Source: Verrucomicrobiota bacterium (GTDB lineage: Bacteria; Verrucomicrobiota; Verrucomicrobiia; Verrucomicrobiales; Verrucomicrobiaceae). Taken from it: DNA of 16,509 nt. The stretch is from NCBI GenBank assembly GCA_009885275.1, contig VFKY01000347.1:1-16509 (forward strand). The letters are read 5' to 3'. The translations under genes were made by a program, and so were the position numbers. The notes under the pieces are model-generated. The model saw nothing but the letters and a program-made list of their open reading frames with translations. It ran no database searches and was not told the origin of the DNA. Shown piece after piece: positions 6,611 through 12,737 of the stretch (position 1 is its first letter; every line of letters starts with the position of its first letter).

Positions 6611-9600
6611 CTACTGAGCAAGTTTATCAGAGCACTCCTGAAGCCATTGGGCATCCGGCGATGCGTAGGGACGAAAAGTTTCCAGTGCACCTTCATGCTC
6701 ACTGTAGAACAACGCTCGATGAAGACCTAGATTGCTAGCCTTAGGTGAATCAATGAGACTAGCGGAATCATTGGCGCTCATTTGAAATACGACGCGCATT
6801 TCAAATTCACTGAGCGTTTTACGGCTCATGCTACGGTTCACATTGTTATAAGTATCTACCGTGGTGATGATGTGAATGCCATGACTGCTGCCTTCCGTGA
6901 TTAATTCAACAAATTGAGCGCCGGGATTGGAAGCGCTTGCTTCATCACTCATGGAGAAACTGAAGTCATCCTCCTGCCGAAGTTTCTTATACTTGTGCAA
7001 ACCATGGATGAAGAGAAAGACCGTCGGAGCGACAACGGAGCCGTTGTTGTTGACACGTGCCTTGAGATCGGTAGCCAAGTCATTGATGATTTCAGCAATA
7101 TCCATTCCCTCTGCCATCAAGACTTCATGAGGCATAATCTTAACGATCTGCTCAAATAATTCAGCGTCAGATGAACCTGGATTGGCTGATTGGATGAGAA
7201 CAAACTTCACCGAGCCAACAGGATGCTGTGCCGCCAATGCCAACATGGAAAGTCCTATCATCGTCACCGCTGCTTCATCGCGTTGTCCAACGATCAGCAG
7301 ATGATTGCCACTCTGTCGATGAAAAACAACCTCTGTGGGACCCTTGATTGAATTTGGTGCACCGAGCCAGCAGCGTGGAGCAACGGGTGCGGTGACAGGC
7401 CTGGTATTGATTGCCTTGATGAGTGCTTCATTCTCGCGAATTTCAGCAGGAGCATTGCCTTCAAAAACAATAGGCATGGAATGCTGCGGGTATTTTTCTT
7501 CGGCAAGCAGATTAACCTTGTCGAGCCATTGGTCGCGTTCATCATCTGGCAACCAGACAACTTGGAAAGGGCTATTGCCCTCGATTGCACCGGCGGCGTC
7601 ATTGTAAATCCCCTCACCTGGTCGTGAAAGTAATCGCGGCGCAGAGTTGTTTTCATCCATGATTAAATACGCATCAGCCTCATTGCACTGCAAAGCGACA
7701 CGAATAACCATCTGACCAAGAGTGGCACGAGCAAGCGAATAGGCACCACCGAGTGTCTGAGAACCTAGCAAGACATGAATGCCAAAGGCTCGACCTTGAC
7801 GAACGATGCGATCAAACAGCAGCGATGCCGTCTGCGCAATGGTGTCATCATCCACGAAAAACTCCTGAAACTCATCAATGATAAGCAAGGAACGCGGCAT
7901 GGGTTCTGCGCCGCCAGCGCGCTTGTACCCCGCAACATCCTGCACCCCGAGTTTGCGAAACATGTCACCTCGTCGCTTCAACTCTGAATCCACCTTTTGC
8001 AAGACGCTCAGAGCAAACTCACGGTCACTTTCAATCGCCACCACTCGGGCATGAGGCAGTCTCTTGGTAGCGTAGCACTTGAACTCCACCCCCTTCTTGA
8101 AATCAATGAGATAGAACTCCACCTGTTCGGGACTATAAGCCAGAGCGAGATTTGTGATGATAACGTGAAAAAGTGTGGACTTGCCCGATCCTGTCTTACC
8201 CGCAAAGAGGGCGTGCTGACGCGTGCCTTTGCCGATAGCGAGTATCTGATGCTTCGTGGCACCAGTGCGTCCGATGGCGATGCGCAGTTCATTGGTGGAT
8301 TCGCTTGTCCACAGTTCCTCGGGCTTGGGCGCAATTTGGGTAAAGGGCACCTGCACACGATTGGAGTCGATGCTGCTCGCGCCGATCTTGTGAACAAGAT
8401 TGATCGCAAGATCAGGATTAGGCGGCAAATCCAAAATCAAAATTGCGTTACCGGTAGCCTGCCCATCAAGTCTAACCCCATTTTTATCATGGCGAATGCA
8501 GACACTATTTTGCCTAAGGGCATCTGGCAGAAAGCCATCAGGAAGCGGTTGACGTTGATCCCAATGGATGAGGGTGTAAATGCCACAGCGAGGACCACTT
8601 GCCGCGATACTCTGTAGGCGCTTCACCGCGATCTCACTAAAATTTGCAGGAAAGTCGGCCACCACGAGAAATTGATATTTCTCAGCCACGCTACCGGCCT
8701 TCTCATTGTATTCCGTGATGGTTGCATACTCGTTACGCAGATACATTTGAATGACCTTCTCAATGTGCTCACTCAATTCTGCCAACCTCTCTTCGATTTG
8801 ATCACGTTGCGTCCATATGCGATGATTGATCAAGCTCTCTTCATAGTCAGAAAGATGCATCAGTCCTGCGAAATTTTTTCCAAGACCTACTGGGTCAAGA
8901 ATCGTAAAACTTAGCTTCCCGGGAGGGGTCGTAGCAAGAAGACGAAGGACAATATTGTTCAATGTGCCAGTGACGATCTCCTCACCGGAACCCATGGTTT
9001 CAAAAAGAATAGAGCCTTGAACAGGAAACGTTAACGCCAACGGAACACTCACTTGTGGGTTCCCTGGCAGCGCAAGACGAACATCCTGAGGAATTCGGCA
9101 AGGAAGCATTGTTAGATCAAGATCAAGATGCGCAAACTTCGTGGCGGAAGTAAACTCTGTAGGTGGCACCCAGCCTTCCACAAACGAATCAGACCACCGT
9201 GGAAAACGATGCTCCATGATCATATTCATCTCACCTATCGCGTGATAGATGCTCCCAATATCACGCTTCCAATTAACCTCCATCTCATCCCAGAGACTTC
9301 GATTCACAGTATCAAGCCCCAAAAGTTCGCTGTTGAGTTTTTCTTTAATCTCTTGAATTTTTATATTTGCCTCATCTTGGAGAGCTTGCGCTTTTACTGA
9401 TCGCCCATCGTTGATGATCGTCATTTTTTCGTCCAGAATGATTTCCAGTTTACGAATGACACGAGGCAGTTGAGTTTCGAGCTTAGCTTTGACCCGTTGT
9501 TCAAACTCCGCTTCCGTTTCACCAGCACGCGATTTCTGTTCTTCAATGGTTGCAGCCATCTGCTCAAACTCCTGCTGCCTGCGAACACGGTCCTCCTCAT

Positions 9601-10504
9601 GCTTCGAAGATGCCAAGGCACGACAAGTCTCATAAAGTCGATTGGCCTCGCCAAGCGAAGACGCCACGGCATCAGCGGCTGGCGTCGCGCGGTTCCGACT
9701 AATCTGATGAACAATATACAACAAGAACAATAATCCTGCAGTGACGCCTCCTGCCGTAACATGCGATTCCATGCTAAATCCCATCGCAAAAGATAATGAC
9801 ACACCAGCTATAAGAATAAGCACGCTAAGTAGAGAAAGAGGTGCCAGGCTAAAAATACGAGGCAGCGTGAGTAAACCAAATGCGGTGATATGTTCCTCAG
9901 CGTTTTCAATTTTTTGCTGAAACCGAACAAGCAGCACTTCAGAATCATCCTTCGTTATTTTATTCTCAGAAGGTTTAATAAACTCCTTTTTGAGCATTTT
10001 TTGAAATGCGTCATAACCTTGAAAATGGCGTTTAGATATCCTACCTAAATTCAATAATTTACTTCGCTGTGTGGCAAGTCGCTCAGAATACTCCTGCAAT
10101 GCGCCATCAGCCAGCGCCTCGTCCGCTTTAAGTTTTCCATCCAAACGATATCGCTTCATCTGCAAATCACCTAACCATCCTGTCCGCACTTCTTTAACAC
10201 GTCGGGGAAGGCTGCGTATCGCCAGGAGGTGCGTGCGCTGTAGCTTAGCACGACGTTTTTCCGCAATGTTTTGCACACGATCAGCAGTTGCCTGAAAGTG
10301 CGATTCAACATCATTGATCTGGGTAGCAACACTGACTTCAGTGCCTTCGATGAGTTCCTGATACGTTCGAGTTACCTTGTAACGTTGCGCATTGAGATCA
10401 CGATTGATTTGATCTTCTTGTTTCACAAAATCTGAAACAGTTTGTTCCAATTTTTTGAGAAGCTCCAAGCTATGGGTGACGCGTAAATCCATTAAGTTAC
10501 TCAC
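6611..10504 (-). CDS. Membrane-anchored FtsK/SpoIIIE ATPase, EccC/EssC-like motor of a type VII-like system
   Basis: This is a 1297-aa protein. Residues 8 to about 200 are charged, helical and probably coiled coil. Two membrane segments follow at about 209-241 and 250-267, then a second coiled-coil stretch (285-400). Three ATPase-like modules come next. The first (about 470-700) has no Walker A. The second (about 740-985) has a full Walker A, GKTGSGKST at 769-777, and Walker B SLLIIDEF at 872-879. In the third (about 1060-1290) the P-loop position reads GQRDEAAV at 1073-1080 and Walker B reads FLFIHG. Multiple modules in tandem resemble EccC/EssC, the motors of type VII secretion, where the extra modules bind substrate. 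FHA domains as in EssC are absent. The start is GTG 10504, with AAGG about 12 bases upstream, and it overlaps the 70-aa gene by 8 bp. The FtsK fold is certain; the secretion role is inferred from the WXG100 gene in the same operon. Confidence 0.9.
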   Translation of the reverse strand: MSNLMDLRVTHSLELLKKLEQTVSDFVKQEDQINRDLNAQRYKVTRTYQELIEGTEVSVATQINDVESHFQATADRVQNIAEKRRAKLQRTHLLAIRSLPRRVKEVRTGWLGDLQMKRYRLDGKLKADEALADGALQEYSERLATQRSKLLNLGRISKRHFQGYDAFQKMLKKEFIKPSENKITKDDSEVLLVRFQQKIENAEEHITAFGLLTLPRIFSLAPLSLLSVLILIAGVSLSFAMGFSMESHVTAGGVTAGLLFLLYIVHQISRNRATPAADAVASSLGEANRLYETCRALASSKHEEDRVRRQQEFEQMAATIEEQKSRAGETEAEFEQRVKAKLETQLPRVIRKLEIILDEKMTIINDGRSVKAQALQDEANIKIQEIKEKLNSELLGLDTVNRSLWDEMEVNWKRDIGSIYHAIGEMNMIMEHRFPRWSDSFVEGWVPPTEFTSATKFAHLDLDLTMLPCRIPQDVRLALPGNPQVSVPLALTFPVQGSILFETMGSGEEIVTGTLNNIVLRLLATTPPGKLSFTILDPVGLGKNFAGLMHLSDYEESLINHRIWTQRDQIEERLAELSEHIEKVIQMYLRNEYATITEYNEKAGSVAEKYQFLVVADFPANFSEIAVKRLQSIAASGPRCGIYTLIHWDQRQPLPDGFLPDALRQNSVCIRHDKNGVRLDGQATGNAILILDLPPNPDLAINLVHKIGASSIDSNRVQVPFTQIAPKPEELWTSESTNELRIAIGRTGATKHQILAIGKGTRQHALFAGKTGSGKSTLFHVIITNLALAYSPEQVEFYLIDFKKGVEFKCYATKRLPHARVVAIESDREFALSVLQKVDSELKRRGDMFRKLGVQDVAGYKRAGGAEPMPRSLLIIDEFQEFFVDDDTIAQTASLLFDRIVRQGRAFGIHVLLGSQTLGGAYSLARATLGQMVIRVALQCNEADAYLIMDENNSAPRLLSRPGEGIYNDAAGAIEGNSPFQVVWLPDDERDQWLDKVNLLAEEKYPQHSMPIVFEGNAPAEIRENEALIKAINTRPVTAPVAPRCWLGAPNSIKGPTEVVFHRQSGNHLLIVGQRDEAAVTMIGLSMLALAAQHPVGSVKFVLIQSANPGSSDAELFEQIVKIMPHEVLMAEGMDIAEIINDLATDLKARVNNNGSVVAPTVFLFIHGLHKYKKLRQEDDFSFSMSDEASASNPGAQFVELITEGSSHGIHIITTVDTYNNVNRSMSRKTLSEFEMRVVFQMSANDSASLIDSPKASNLGLHRALFYSEHEGALETFRPYASPDAQWLQECSDKLAQ

Positions 10505-10709
10505 AATCGTTTCTTACCTTTCTGAGGAAAGCATCAATCTCATCCATCGCGGTCTTCGCTTGCGAGACATGGTTGGGTAATTGTTCGAGATACTTTTGCT
10601 CAAACTCTTTACTCTTAATATCACGCCAGTAGTTTTTTGCTTGTTGCCATTCCACGCTCAAATCGCGGACAGCGTTGGCTAAATTATTGGCGCTTACTCG
10701 AGTGCTCAT
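10497..10709 (-). CDS. Small helical protein of the WXG100/FtsK operon, possible second WXG100-like partner
   Basis: This 70-aa protein is all-helical by inspection, with no membrane segment. The core reads EWQQAKNYWRDIKSKEFEQK (residues 20-39), in which W29-x-D and a Phe eight residues on from W29 match the turn-and-second-helix pattern of the operon's 90-aa WXG100-like protein (W-x-D ... F). It ends in a second helix and DCE. It lies 14 bp after the 173-aa gene and overlaps the ATPase start by 8 bp, so it is surely co-translated with the ATPase. I know no named family for it. It could be a secreted partner, a chaperone or an adaptor for the ATPase. No Shine-Dalgarno is visible before ATG 10709. 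Confidence 0.75.
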   Translation of the reverse strand: MSTRVSANNLANAVRDLSVEWQQAKNYWRDIKSKEFEQKYLEQLPNHVSQAKTAMDEIDAFLRKVRNDCE

Positions 10710-10723
10710 AGTCGGTTATAAAT

Positions 10724-11245
10724 CTAATGCGGCATTTCCGGTTCTGCGACAGAAACCGTGTCCGCATTAACTGGTGTAGATACAGTGTAATCTTCAAGGG
10801 TCCGCTGCACTTGGACGAGGAAGAAAACCGCTTTGGGCATTTCATGATCAAGCTCATAGCGCAGCGTCTCAAGACGCTTCAAAAGCGGGTCCACGGTGCT
10901 GTCAAAATTATGCGTCCATCGTTTCACCTGCCGCAGTTTTTCATCTGCCTCCTCGACTGCGAGACGAGACTTCCTAACCGCTTGTTGCTGCACTGTAGGG
11001 GAATCCACAAATTCGGACATTCGAGCACTCATCAATTCCCCTTCTGCTTGATCGAGCATACGTCGACGTTTGCGCAATTGATCTTCCCAATACACCCGCC
11101 GATCATTCTGCAACCACTGACGGGTTTGCCGCACTTCATCACTCACTTGATCCAGAGAACGACGCGCACGAGTCATGAACACGATCATTCTAGCTCGAAG
11201 GGATTCGAGAGCATCCAATGATGTGATCTTGACCTGCTCTGCCAT
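10724..11245 (-). CDS. Coiled-coil protein of the WXG100/FtsK operon
   Basis: This 173-aa protein is rich in Arg, Glu, Gln and Leu with a strong heptad character from about residue 8 to 150. It has no signal peptide, membrane segment or cysteine pair. The final 20 residues are a low-complexity acidic/Val/Thr tail. Conserved-looking points are YWEDQLRKRRRMLDQAEGEL and WTHNFDSTVDPLLKRLE. It starts 6 bp after the WXG100 gene stop and ends 14 bp before the 70-aa gene. Position suggests a structural or chaperone part of the type VII-like apparatus, perhaps pairing with the coiled coils of the ATPase. I do not recognise a named family, and no enzymatic motif is present. Confidence 0.75.
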   Translation of the reverse strand: MAEQVKITSLDALESLRARMIVFMTRARRSLDQVSDEVRQTRQWLQNDRRVYWEDQLRKRRRMLDQAEGELMSARMSEFVDSPTVQQQAVRKSRLAVEEADEKLRQVKRWTHNFDSTVDPLLKRLETLRYELDHEMPKAVFFLVQVQRTLEDYTVSTPVNADTVSVAEPEMPH

Positions 11246-11251
11246 GATATA

Positions 11252-11524
11252 TCAACGTTGATCCAGATATTGCTCAATCCGTTGAGCTTTCCGTAAGAGG
11301 AAGGGTGTGTGTTTCTCAGATACCTCGACAAATTTTTTCAAGACTTTCATGGTCGAAATAAACTCCTCGGCGAACTTCTCCTGTTCCTGATCCTGCCATG
11401 AGCTGCCTAAAGCAGTAAAACGCGCCTGCAAAGCTCCAGCTCTACCCGCAACATCATCATTGAAACGCTTCAACTCTTTAGCAAAACGTCGCACTTCTTC
11501 AGGATCCATGATTGCCTGCGCCAT
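11252..11524 (-). CDS. WXG100-like protein (type VII secretion target/ESX-like)
   Basis: This 90-aa helical-hairpin protein shows FNDDVAGRAGALQARFTALG in helix 1, then SSWQDQEQEKFAEEF. That gives a W-x-D turn in place of strict W-x-G, followed by the spaced Phe usual for the family, and a long second helix ending FLLRKAQRIEQYLDQR. Size and pattern match proteins annotated as WXG100 type VII secretion targets in Planctomycetes and Verrucomicrobia. Known ESX proteins are secreted as helical dimers. The usual C-terminal YxxxD/E export signal is not obvious; the end reads EQYLDQR. It is the first gene of the operon that ends with the FtsK/SpoIIIE motor, which strengthens the call. An AT-rich TATATAAA lies just before the ATG, so the leader may be very short. 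Confidence 0.85.
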   Translation of the reverse strand: MAQAIMDPEEVRRFAKELKRFNDDVAGRAGALQARFTALGSSWQDQEQEKFAEEFISTMKVLKKFVEVSEKHTPFLLRKAQRIEQYLDQR

Positions 11525-11736
11525 AGTCTTTTATATACAAGGTTGGGTTGAACTTAGCGTGATGCACAAAAGAATGTCTTGTTGGAGAGAATAATGCAAG
11601 CTTCGTGATAGCACATCGGCTCACAAGGCCGTTCTGACCATGCCCCCCCATGTCCGCATATCGGTTTACCGCAGAGATATTTTCTCGGTTTCAATAATGT
11701 CGCTTGCGTTCCTCTCTGACTTTGGGAAAACAAGGG
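11525..11736. promoter_or_regulatory. Divergent intergenic region between the WXG100 operon and the ROK-ppx-ppk1 cluster
   Basis: The genes on either side point away from this 212-bp gap, so promoters for both units should be here. On the minus strand TATATA (11537-11532) would place a transcription start next to the WXG100 ATG, but no matching -35 sits 17 bp upstream. On the plus strand CAATAAT near 11691-11697 is a possible -10, again without a good -35. No operator palindrome or RNA element stands out. The role is inferred from gene orientation. Confidence 0.5.
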
Positions 11737-12432
11737 ATGGCCAAGAAAGCTACGAAAATCAAACTCAAGCGACCTGATAAATCCTATTGGATTGGATTTG
11801 ACCTCGGCGGCACTAAAATGATGGCTTGTATACTGGATGATAAATACCAAGTAATTGCGGTAGCAAAGAAATCCACCCAAGGCACCCAAGGTCCCATAAA
11901 GGGATTAGCCCGAATTAAATCAACCATTGATGAAGCCCTAGCAATCGCTGGCCTGTCTCGCACTCAAATCAAAGGAATAGGCATCGGCTGTCCAGGCACG
12001 GTGAATTCGGAAAAAGGCATCCTGATACACGCACCTAATCTCGGTTGGGACAGACTCCCTCTAGGGCCTCGCTTGAGCACGACTTACAAATGCCCTGTCA
12101 AAATTCTCAACGACGTTGACGCTGGTACTTATGGCGAATATGCCCTGGGTGCAGGCAAGGGAGCTCGCTCACTTATGGGGGTTTTCCCGGGTACCGGCCT
12201 TGGAGCCGGCTTCGTTTATAACGGACAGCTTATTCAAGGTAAAAATGTATCCTGTATGGAACTAGGACTCATTTGGTTGCCTGGCACGCACTTAAACTCT
12301 CCGCTGCCCGGTGCCGTACTCCTGGAAGATTTGACTAGCAGACTAGGTATTGCCGCAGCATCAAGCGTAGAATGCTATCGCGGTAAAGCAAAGCTACTGG
12401 ATGCCAAGACCAACGCCCCCTGCGTGAGATGA
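11737..12432 (+). CDS. ROK family sugar kinase, N-terminal part (frameshifted)
   Basis: This holds the first two thirds of a ROK kinase. The phosphate-binding loop reads FDLGGTK, then GIGCPGTVN, the catalytic-region motif LNDVDAGTYGEYALGAGKG, and the second phosphate loop FPGTGLGAG. The frame stops at TGA 12430-12432. Adding one C to the five-C run at 12416-12420 restores a continuous reading (PLREMKSKALSSSFKANES) into the following frame. The gene is therefore either truly broken, translated by frameshifting, or affected by a sequence error. The zinc-binding CxCGxxGCxE motif expected after the CMELG stretch is missing; PGTHLNSPLPGAVLLEDLTS stands there. ATG 11737 is preferred over TTG 11704, as it is close to the domain start. 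It is the first gene before the ppx-like gene and ppk1. The substrate is unknown; glucose is usual for the family. Confidence 0.85.
   Translation: MAKKATKIKLKRPDKSYWIGFDLGGTKMMACILDDKYQVIAVAKKSTQGTQGPIKGLARIKSTIDEALAIAGLSRTQIKGIGIGCPGTVNSEKGILIHAPNLGWDRLPLGPRLSTTYKCPVKILNDVDAGTYGEYALGAGKGARSLMGVFPGTGLGAGFVYNGQLIQGKNVSCMELGLIWLPGTHLNSPLPGAVLLEDLTSRLGIAAASSVECYRGKAKLLDAKTNAPCVR
12416..12420 (+). other. Five-C homopolymer at the point of the ROK kinase frameshift
   Basis: The run GCCCCCTG reads Ala-Pro-Cys and then terminates nine bases later. Six Cs would read Ala-Pro-Leu-Arg-Glu-Met-Lys and join the two ROK fragments without loss. Homopolymers are common sites of sequencing error and of slipped-strand mutation, and the sequence alone cannot tell these apart. 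Confidence 0.7.
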
Positions 12433-12737
12433 AAAGCAAGGCGCTCAGTAGTTCATTCAAAGCCAACGAATCAACCGTCAACATCTTCAACAACTCCGTG
12501 CATTATCTGGGTATGGGCATTGCGATGGCAGTCAATTTACTCGGACCCGATCACATAACCCTAGGGGGAGGATTGGTGGAGGAGATGCCTCGTTACTATC
12601 TGGATCGATTAAAAATGGAAGTCTCACGTTATGCCGTTCCTGAAATCTTCCGCGGCATTAAATTCTCGATTGCAAAGCTAGGTGATAGCGCTGTCGCTGC
12701 TGGATCAGTGGCCTGGTTAAGAAATATTAACGCTTAG
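12429..12737 (+). CDS. ROK family sugar kinase, C-terminal part (frameshifted)
   Basis: This 102-aa frame holds the C-terminal lobe of the same kinase: GMGIAMAVNLLGPDHITLGGGLVEEMP, with the adenine-site LGGG motif, and a typical end GDSAVAAGSVAWL. The apparent ATG at 12429 overlaps the stop of the N-terminal part (ATGA), so reinitiation could in principle give two polypeptides. That ATG falls inside a helix of the intact fold rather than at a domain border, so I read it as part of one gene of about 333 codons. The well-kept sequence on both sides of the break suggests a recent break or an artefact. It ends 6 bp before the ppx-like gene. Confidence 0.85.
   Translation: MKSKALSSSFKANESTVNIFNNSVHYLGMGIAMAVNLLGPDHITLGGGLVEEMPRYYLDRLKMEVSRYAVPEIFRGIKFSIAKLGDSAVAAGSVAWLRNINA

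Follow-up and report, generated by a model that had tools for sequence, protein, structure and literature searches.

Can a WXG100 protein, two further small proteins and a single FtsK-type motor form a secretion system by themselves, or do they belong to another kind of machine? The question is raised by four genes on contig VFKY01000347.1 of a Verrucomicrobiota bacterium (assembly GCA_009885275.1), of which we analysed a stretch of 16,509 nucleotides, referred to here as the window. Research on WXG100 proteins has concentrated on their role as secreted components of type VII secretion systems (T7SS), and the part of a 2014 survey that deals with their distribution (PMC3935865) takes nearly all of them from Actinobacteria and Firmicutes and a few more from Chloroflexi. 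A sequence-only reading of the window had taken the genes for an ESX system reduced to its motor and helical partners. Judging by the motor domain plan, the closest relatives and the gene order, the four-gene set falls instead into a distinct class of WXG-FtsK modules that has been noted before. With moderate confidence we regard it as a toxin-less WXG100-FtsK motor set, a little-studied relative of the T7SS in which the WXG100 protein is built in as a part of the machine.

Conservation and spread of the four-gene set

The four genes lie on the minus strand and are tightly packed, with a gap of 6 bp between the WXG100 and p173 genes, a gap of 14 bp between the p173 and p70 genes and an overlap of 8 bp between the p70 and motor genes. 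These distances, taken from the coordinates of the open reading frames (ORFs), agree exactly with those first noted in the sequence-only reading.

11252-11524, minus strand: WXG100 gene, an ORF of 90 amino acids of the W-x-D type
10724-11245, minus strand: p173 gene, an ORF of 173 amino acids, helical and coiled-coil-like as judged by eye, with a variable tail
10497-10709, minus strand: p70 gene, an ORF of 70 amino acids encoding a short helical protein
6611-10504, minus strand: motor gene, FtsK/SpoIIIE-like, an ORF of 1297 amino acids with a GTG start

A scan of genome contigs gave at least 475 confirmed relatives of the motor, the best 80 of which served as our locus sample. In these 80 loci phmmer found the WXG100 gene 71 times, p173 73 times and p70 75 times, and all four genes were present in 71 loci, invariably in the order WXG100-p173-p70-motor and on a single strand, a recurrence that is not due to chance. 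The nine incomplete loci comprise five contigs that begin inside the motor gene, one (L045) that begins inside p173 and three genuine departures, namely L070, with p173, p70 and motor and no WXG100 gene at the site, and L027 and L072, with p70 and motor only. In genome G054 the operon is split: its motor locus (L012) is a p70-motor pair as in L027, and the WXG100-p173 pair is found on a separate contig.

When ORFs longer than about 100 amino acids were called with a simple ORF caller and clustered over flanks of up to 10 kb, no other family was shared by over 5 of the 80 loci; the sequence before the motor exceeds 4 kb in 62 of the 80. This scope covers vWA, PP2C and kinase genes, none of which was a recurrent neighbour, and a single cluster of 29 consisted of opposite-strand ORFs over the operon itself. 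The sequence-only reading had proposed checking whether the same gene order recurs without other ESX genes; it does, and no ESX family recurred alongside it in these flanks.

Sequence conservation is uneven across the set. Over the 71 complete loci, mean pairwise identity is 69% for the WXG100 protein, 48% for the whole motor, 38% for p173 and 39% for p70, and within the motor it reaches 81% in domain 2, 58% in domain 1 and 52% in domain 3, falling to 21-23% in the N-terminal part, the membrane segment and the region that follows. Within the set, only motor domain 2 is thus more conserved than the WXG100 protein.

At the level of whole genomes, we examined the window's own genome and 56 relatives. 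A window-type motor (at least 941 bits) was present in 36 of these 57 genomes, the window's own included, and the Pfam WXG100 profile matched in 35, exactly once in each and always together with a motor. G016, the sole motor genome without a WXG100 match, has a contig that begins inside the motor, and 21 genomes have neither gene. In larger samples, a search with a WXG100 alignment matched 49 of 286 genomes at class level and 14 of 240 at phylum level, numbers that may miss some carriers, as some genomes were only partly scored for first-look candidates. In the phylum sample, the only match of G242 and the second match of G257 were of the TerY-P type described below, which leaves 13 genomes. 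Many Verrucomicrobia carry the fixed four-gene set.

We compared motor distances with RpoB distances in 17 of 20 genomes (G009, G016 and G018 were excluded for broken or missing genes) and observed a clear correlation (Mantel r 0.69; none of 5000 permutations as high, the highest being 0.42). Since motor distances track those of RpoB, descent of the motor has probably been mainly vertical, though the presence pattern is patchy and some nearest neighbours are discordant.

The motor and its relation to known systems

The motor matches FtsK_SpoIIIE with 117 bits. It aligns with the motor of locus L148, from a second operon, of the TerY-P/CoCoNuT type, in genome G257 (Lentisphaera marina by record name); the alignment covers residues 487-1280 at 27% identity (E 7e-77) and includes all three ATPase-like domains. 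Together with a scan for Walker A motifs, it gives the following plan.

9905-10504, minus strand: N-terminal region, residues 1-200, coiled-coil-like by eye, mean pairwise identity 23% over 71 loci
9710-9856, minus strand: two hydrophobic segments, residues 217-235 and 247-265, from Kyte-Doolittle hydropathy alone
8405-9046, minus strand: ATPase-like domain 1, residues about 487-700, without Walker A, 58% mean identity
7550-8296, minus strand: ATPase domain 2, residues about 737-985, with Walker A GKTGSGKS at residue 769 and Walker B LLIIDEF, 81% mean identity over residues 730-985
6635-7417, minus strand: ATPase-like domain 3, residues about 1030-1290, without Walker A, 52% mean identity

A single Walker A motif was found in 77 of the 78 motors of at least 1150 amino acids, the window's included. 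The motor had been described as multi-ATPase, a misleading label, because only the middle one of its three ATPase-like domains carries Walker A. It had also been called membrane-anchored, which the two hydrophobic segments support for the window and for most of its relatives: among the same 78 motors, 61 have two such segments, six have one, one has three and ten have none. The label does not extend to a whole group of relatives, as eight of the ten hairpin-less motors are 1214-1226 amino acids long (L060, L063, L068, L072, L074, L075, L077 and L078), and the records of three of these bear the name Prosthecobacter. Of the other two, L084 is cut by the contig start and resembles L077 in sequence, and L088 is borderline. 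The L077 motor retains its N-terminal part, and L074 and L077 nest among hairpin-bearing motors in a tree of 32 motors, so the membrane hairpin was probably lost in this group. Such a group speaks against a machine that requires membrane embedding to work.

With ESX systems the set shares a WXG100 protein and an FtsK-family motor of the EccC/EssC kind. YukC/EssB, however, was found in none of the 57 genomes, with a positive control in B. subtilis that worked. YukD/EsaB was found in one (G004), elsewhere than the operon and adjoining a ThiF/E1-like ORF. No EccD was detected in the 57 genomes, with a control that matched in one genome only and below the cut-off, and no EccB, an uninformative result because the controls were equally silent; EccE, MycP, EsaA and EssA gave no recurrent family in the flank clustering, no dedicated search for them having been made. 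By eye, the single YukD-like protein (L102, 1468-2947) and its ThiF/E1-like neighbour have the look of a bacterial ubiquitin-like operon rather than of a T7SS.

The motor itself also differs from those of ESX systems. Among the best 40 of 366 records from a plasmid search, the rows annotated as eccCa start at window-motor residue 705 or later and therefore leave domain 1 uncovered, and against solved EccC structures the best stretch extended at most over residues 728-967, a second stretch passing for three chains. Four predicted NTPase domains are given for EccC/EssC orthologues of T7SSc-j in the relevant part of PMC11217815, and the Streptomyces EccC that we examined has three Walker A motifs, whereas window-type motors have three ATPase-like domains and one Walker A. 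The earlier claim of a conserved four-gene unit without a canonical ESX partner is thus upheld, by the YukC/EssB result and by the flank clustering, but that of an ESX reduced to its motor and partners is not: on the motor domain plan and the missing YukC and YukD, we reject it as the main explanation.

The class to which the set appears to belong is known, if barely studied. A table footnote in a 2012 survey (PMC3482391) describes a solo-WXG protein with a three-domain FtsK/HerA ATPase, of which the middle domain alone is active, as mobile versions of the T7SS, and verrucomicrobia are listed among the holders of solo-WXG modules. The WXG100 protein, the motor and its three domains, with Walker A confined to the middle one, agree with this description. 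The footnote mentions neither the small partners nor a slot without a toxin, and, unlike its label of mobile, the motor here largely follows RpoB. Among the papers listed by our literature searches, this footnote was the closest text to the subject, and none dealt with the four-gene set in Verrucomicrobia.

A second close relative is the TerY-P or Type III-A CoCoNuT-associated WXG100-EssC-like operon, as outlined in the section of PMC11090510 devoted to it. It shares with our set three ATPase domains of which the central one is active, a long N-terminal coil, a WXG100 protein with a second small protein, and the gene order. Its CoCoNuT motors are described there as being without membrane helices, in contrast to the hairpin of most window-type motors. 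At L148 (6665-18999) the order is vWA, WXG100, a 442-amino-acid coiled-coil protein, ORFs of 125 and 82 amino acids, motor, CARF/Card1-like, PP2C, kinase and AAA_11, and the Caballeronia plasmid locus L155 has the same order; the coiled-coil/restriction endonuclease (REase) protein, the extra small gene, vWA, PP2C and kinase are features of these relatives. G257 carries both types in one genome, the TerY-P type at L148 and a window-type set at L149. More generally, related motors adjoin vWA, PP2C, kinase and CARF genes, or TerD genes.

Helicobacter provides a third comparison. HP0062 is a WXG100-like dimer with a W-R-D motif and an FtsK/SpoIIIE gene in its cluster (PMC4978471, PMC3397514, in the portions concerned with this protein), so that the HP0062/HP0066 pair resembles our set in combining a WXG100-like protein with an FtsK/SpoIIIE gene. 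A Helicobacter plasmid operon (L156) encodes an 89-amino-acid W-x-D protein, an HNH nuclease, SMI1/KNR4, a 77-amino-acid protein and a motor of 823 amino acids, and differs from the window in the nuclease, the SMI1/KNR4 gene and the size of the motor.

Further loci with motors of this broad kind were noted. In the window's own family, L150 (6816-12504, G014) has a 1157-amino-acid motor ORF, a small ORF, a hairpin-like protein of 109 amino acids and a 560-amino-acid protein that looks HNH-like by eye. Judged by eye, a faecal contig filed as phage (L157, 584-9636) carries a ThiF-like ORF, a 1423-amino-acid FtsK motor, a recombinase-like ORF and a 349-amino-acid protein with a hairpin-like start and an apparent metallopeptidase end. 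On a Deinococcus plasmid (L152, 6264-11503) the motor is accompanied by two hairpin-like proteins and a 326-amino-acid helical protein without a visible toxin domain, possibly a second toxin-less form, and on a Rhodococcus plasmid (L153, 5489-13294) small helical proteins accompany a related motor, with a TerD gene close by. Matches from Chlorohelix and Rhizorhabdus were set aside, their motors being about 1800 amino acids long with no WXG100 annotated nearby.

The small proteins and the effector slot

The 90-amino-acid protein is a genuine WXG100 protein, as first suggested from its sequence, scoring 36.2 bits against the Pfam WXG100 profile (cut-off 27.3) and 27.9 bits, under the cut-off of 44.85, against the NCBI ESAT-6 model. 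Its closest solved structure by profile is HP0062 of H. pylori (E 9e-11, residues 1-88), with EsxB entries (E 1e-7) and EsxA (E 0.007) ranking behind.

11372-11398, minus strand: WXG100 motif W43-x-D45-x5-F51
10602-10628, minus strand: p70 motif W28-x-D30-x5-F36
10500-10508, minus strand: p70 C-terminal D-C-E, residues 68-70, the Cys invariant in a 30-row alignment

The pattern W-x-D-x5-F occurs in 72 of 72 WXG100 sequences, the window's included, and in 76 of 76 p70 sequences, all of them collected by similarity to the window proteins. That p70 and the WXG100 protein have it in common in every sequence found is a new observation. The acidic-Cys C-terminal end of p70 is present in 73 of its 76 sequences. 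In profile comparisons p70 matched HP0062 weakly (E 0.2) and showed no link to the WXG100 family (probability 2.6%), which makes a pairing of p70 with the WXG100 protein a prediction. Additional WXG100 proteins in p173 and p70 were also considered and rejected, the profile comparisons giving no support.

The C-terminal export signal of ESX and other T7SS is Y-x-x-x-D/E. In the last 25 residues it was found in 0 of 72 WXG100 and 0 of 76 p70 sequences, and 9 of 74 p173 sequences have it within their last 60 residues.

Family profile searches gave no nuclease family match on the window's p173, so that the coiled-coil protein fused to an REase-like nuclease, a trait of TerY-P/CoCoNuT operons, has no counterpart in it by these searches. 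Homologous ORFs (n = 74) are mostly 164-195 amino acids long, with every eighth length inspected; the longest, of 340 amino acids (L097), has an uncurated start and overlaps the WXG100 gene. Furthermore, the stops of p173 and p70 lie 201-352 bases apart in 70 of 71 loci, leaving no space for an intervening gene, and in the exception (L051, 1115 bases) no clear extra gene was seen on that strand. The WXG100 gene at both L148 and L155 precedes one for a coiled-coil protein whose end is nuclease-like, and a small gene comes next. In the window-type set p173 alone occupies this slot, which is likewise a new observation.

Moderate evidence suggests that p173 corresponds to the coiled-coil part of such a fusion minus its nuclease. 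With uncut profiles, p173 aligned to the coiled-coil part of the coiled-coil/REase family with an hhalign E of 1.3e-4 and a probability of 54%, and the score of 37.7 exceeded both 60 heptad-block shuffles (18.0 +/- 3.4, highest 30.3) and all 44 reversed profiles. The p173 profile found at least 181 relatives among 8000 scored candidates, and the organism names among the 120 of these 181 matches that were listed are of the Verrucomicrobia type or Lentisphaerae.

Possible roles of the set and other features of the window

In the toxin-less machine that we favour, the WXG100 protein and p70 would pair into a helical bundle, on which p173, placed where relatives encode a coiled-coil-nuclease fusion, would dock as a permanent client or adaptor. 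In most species a hexameric motor would be located at the inner membrane, and ATP hydrolysis in domain 2 would pull on either the hairpin complex or a client recruited by p173. Under such a model of pairing, docking and pulling, the WXG100 protein is more likely built into the machine than secreted as an effector, and export of any component would be predicted at most. Going further, a WXG100-FtsK module that once delivered toxins may have become a permanent cell machine free of toxin in Verrucomicrobiota, with the nuclease lost from the coiled-coil protein, the neighbouring gene gone, the WXG100 protein changed from export substrate to fixed subunit and one lineage left without its membrane anchor; we put this scenario forward tentatively, as possible but doubtful. 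A widespread WXG100 machine of four genes and no toxin, present in bacteria with two membranes and naturally hairpin-less in one version, would offer a clean test of the roles of motor and hairpin.

Several results weigh against a toxin-less machine with a built-in WXG100 protein. The p173 link comes from a single pair of coiled-coil-type profiles at 54% probability, and once both profiles were cut to their shared part it dropped to 15-16%, with a local score of 27.0 and a global score of 22.0, to be set against 27.0 and 26.5 reached by 64 rotated or reversed nulls, many of the rotated ones partly retaining the real match. As to p70, its putative kinship to WXG100-type partners rests on motif, size and place: besides the missing profile link to the WXG100 family, a comparison with the second small protein of TerY-P-type loci (four sequences) was equalled by 6 of 60 shuffles. 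The 21 window-type motors group together in the tree of 32, with an SH-like approximate likelihood ratio (SH-aLRT) of 88, short of the 95% star, and the branches outside this group are mostly very long; the outgroup was a Bacillus match that is listed as DNA translocase FtsK and was on this ground rejected as a possible EssC. Finally, single copies are not universal, since G257 has two WXG100 matches by the WXG100 alignment profile and, among 12 further genomes reached via named loci, 11 have one WXG100 and G291 has two.

A minimal secretion system would be compatible with the same class. In this alternative, to which we allow a modest chance, the motor would export the WXG100/p70 pair together with p173, or a cargo carried by p173, over the inner membrane in an ESX-like manner. 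The WXG100 protein is indeed accompanied by an FtsK motor, 61 of 78 motors have two hydrophobic segments, and the relative at L156 encodes an HNH nuclease beside SMI1/KNR4, a combination familiar from exported toxins. Yet neither the WXG100 protein nor p70 carries the C-terminal signal, the WXG100 protein is highly conserved, unlike effectors, eight motors of 1214-1226 amino acids do without the hairpin, and no additional envelope gene is recurrent nearby. That hairpin loss would sit well with a rival on function, a cytosolic stress or defence module that remodels nucleic acids or protein complexes without export, like its TerY-P/CoCoNuT relatives, whose motors adjoin vWA, PP2C, kinase, CARF or TerD genes and, in the CoCoNuT case, are described without membrane helices (PMC11090510, same section). 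We consider it unlikely, as none of those partner genes is recurrent beside the four-gene set, most motors retain the hairpin, and PADLOC gave 0 matches for the three small proteins. PADLOC did match the motor with FtsK/HerA-type models (SspH, mad8, HerA) over the ATPase region; we took these for cross-hits and rejected a defence system on PADLOC grounds.

Two further explanations seem highly improbable to us. A true ESX/T7SS with its remaining core parts elsewhere in the genome would escape a neighbourhood search, and EccE, MycP, EsaA and EssA had no dedicated search; against it stand the lack of any YukC match in 57 genomes despite a control that worked, the one YukD in a ThiF-like context, EccD in 0 of 57 with a weak control, and the different motor domain plan. 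An FtsK/TraB-like DNA translocase with a merely adjacent WXG100 gene would fit the family of the motor, but we give it just as little credence: a WXG100 gene is present in 35 of 36 motor genomes, the exception being a contig end, and G054 retains the set despite its split operon.

As for the remainder of the window, promoter and terminator scans gave counts no higher than in shuffled sequence, an Rfam scan at the gathering threshold gave 0 matches, and a tRNA scan found none. The adjoining ROK-type kinase gene (11704-12737) is split into two frames that overlap at 12429-12432, which would reflect either a frameshift or an error of the draft assembly.

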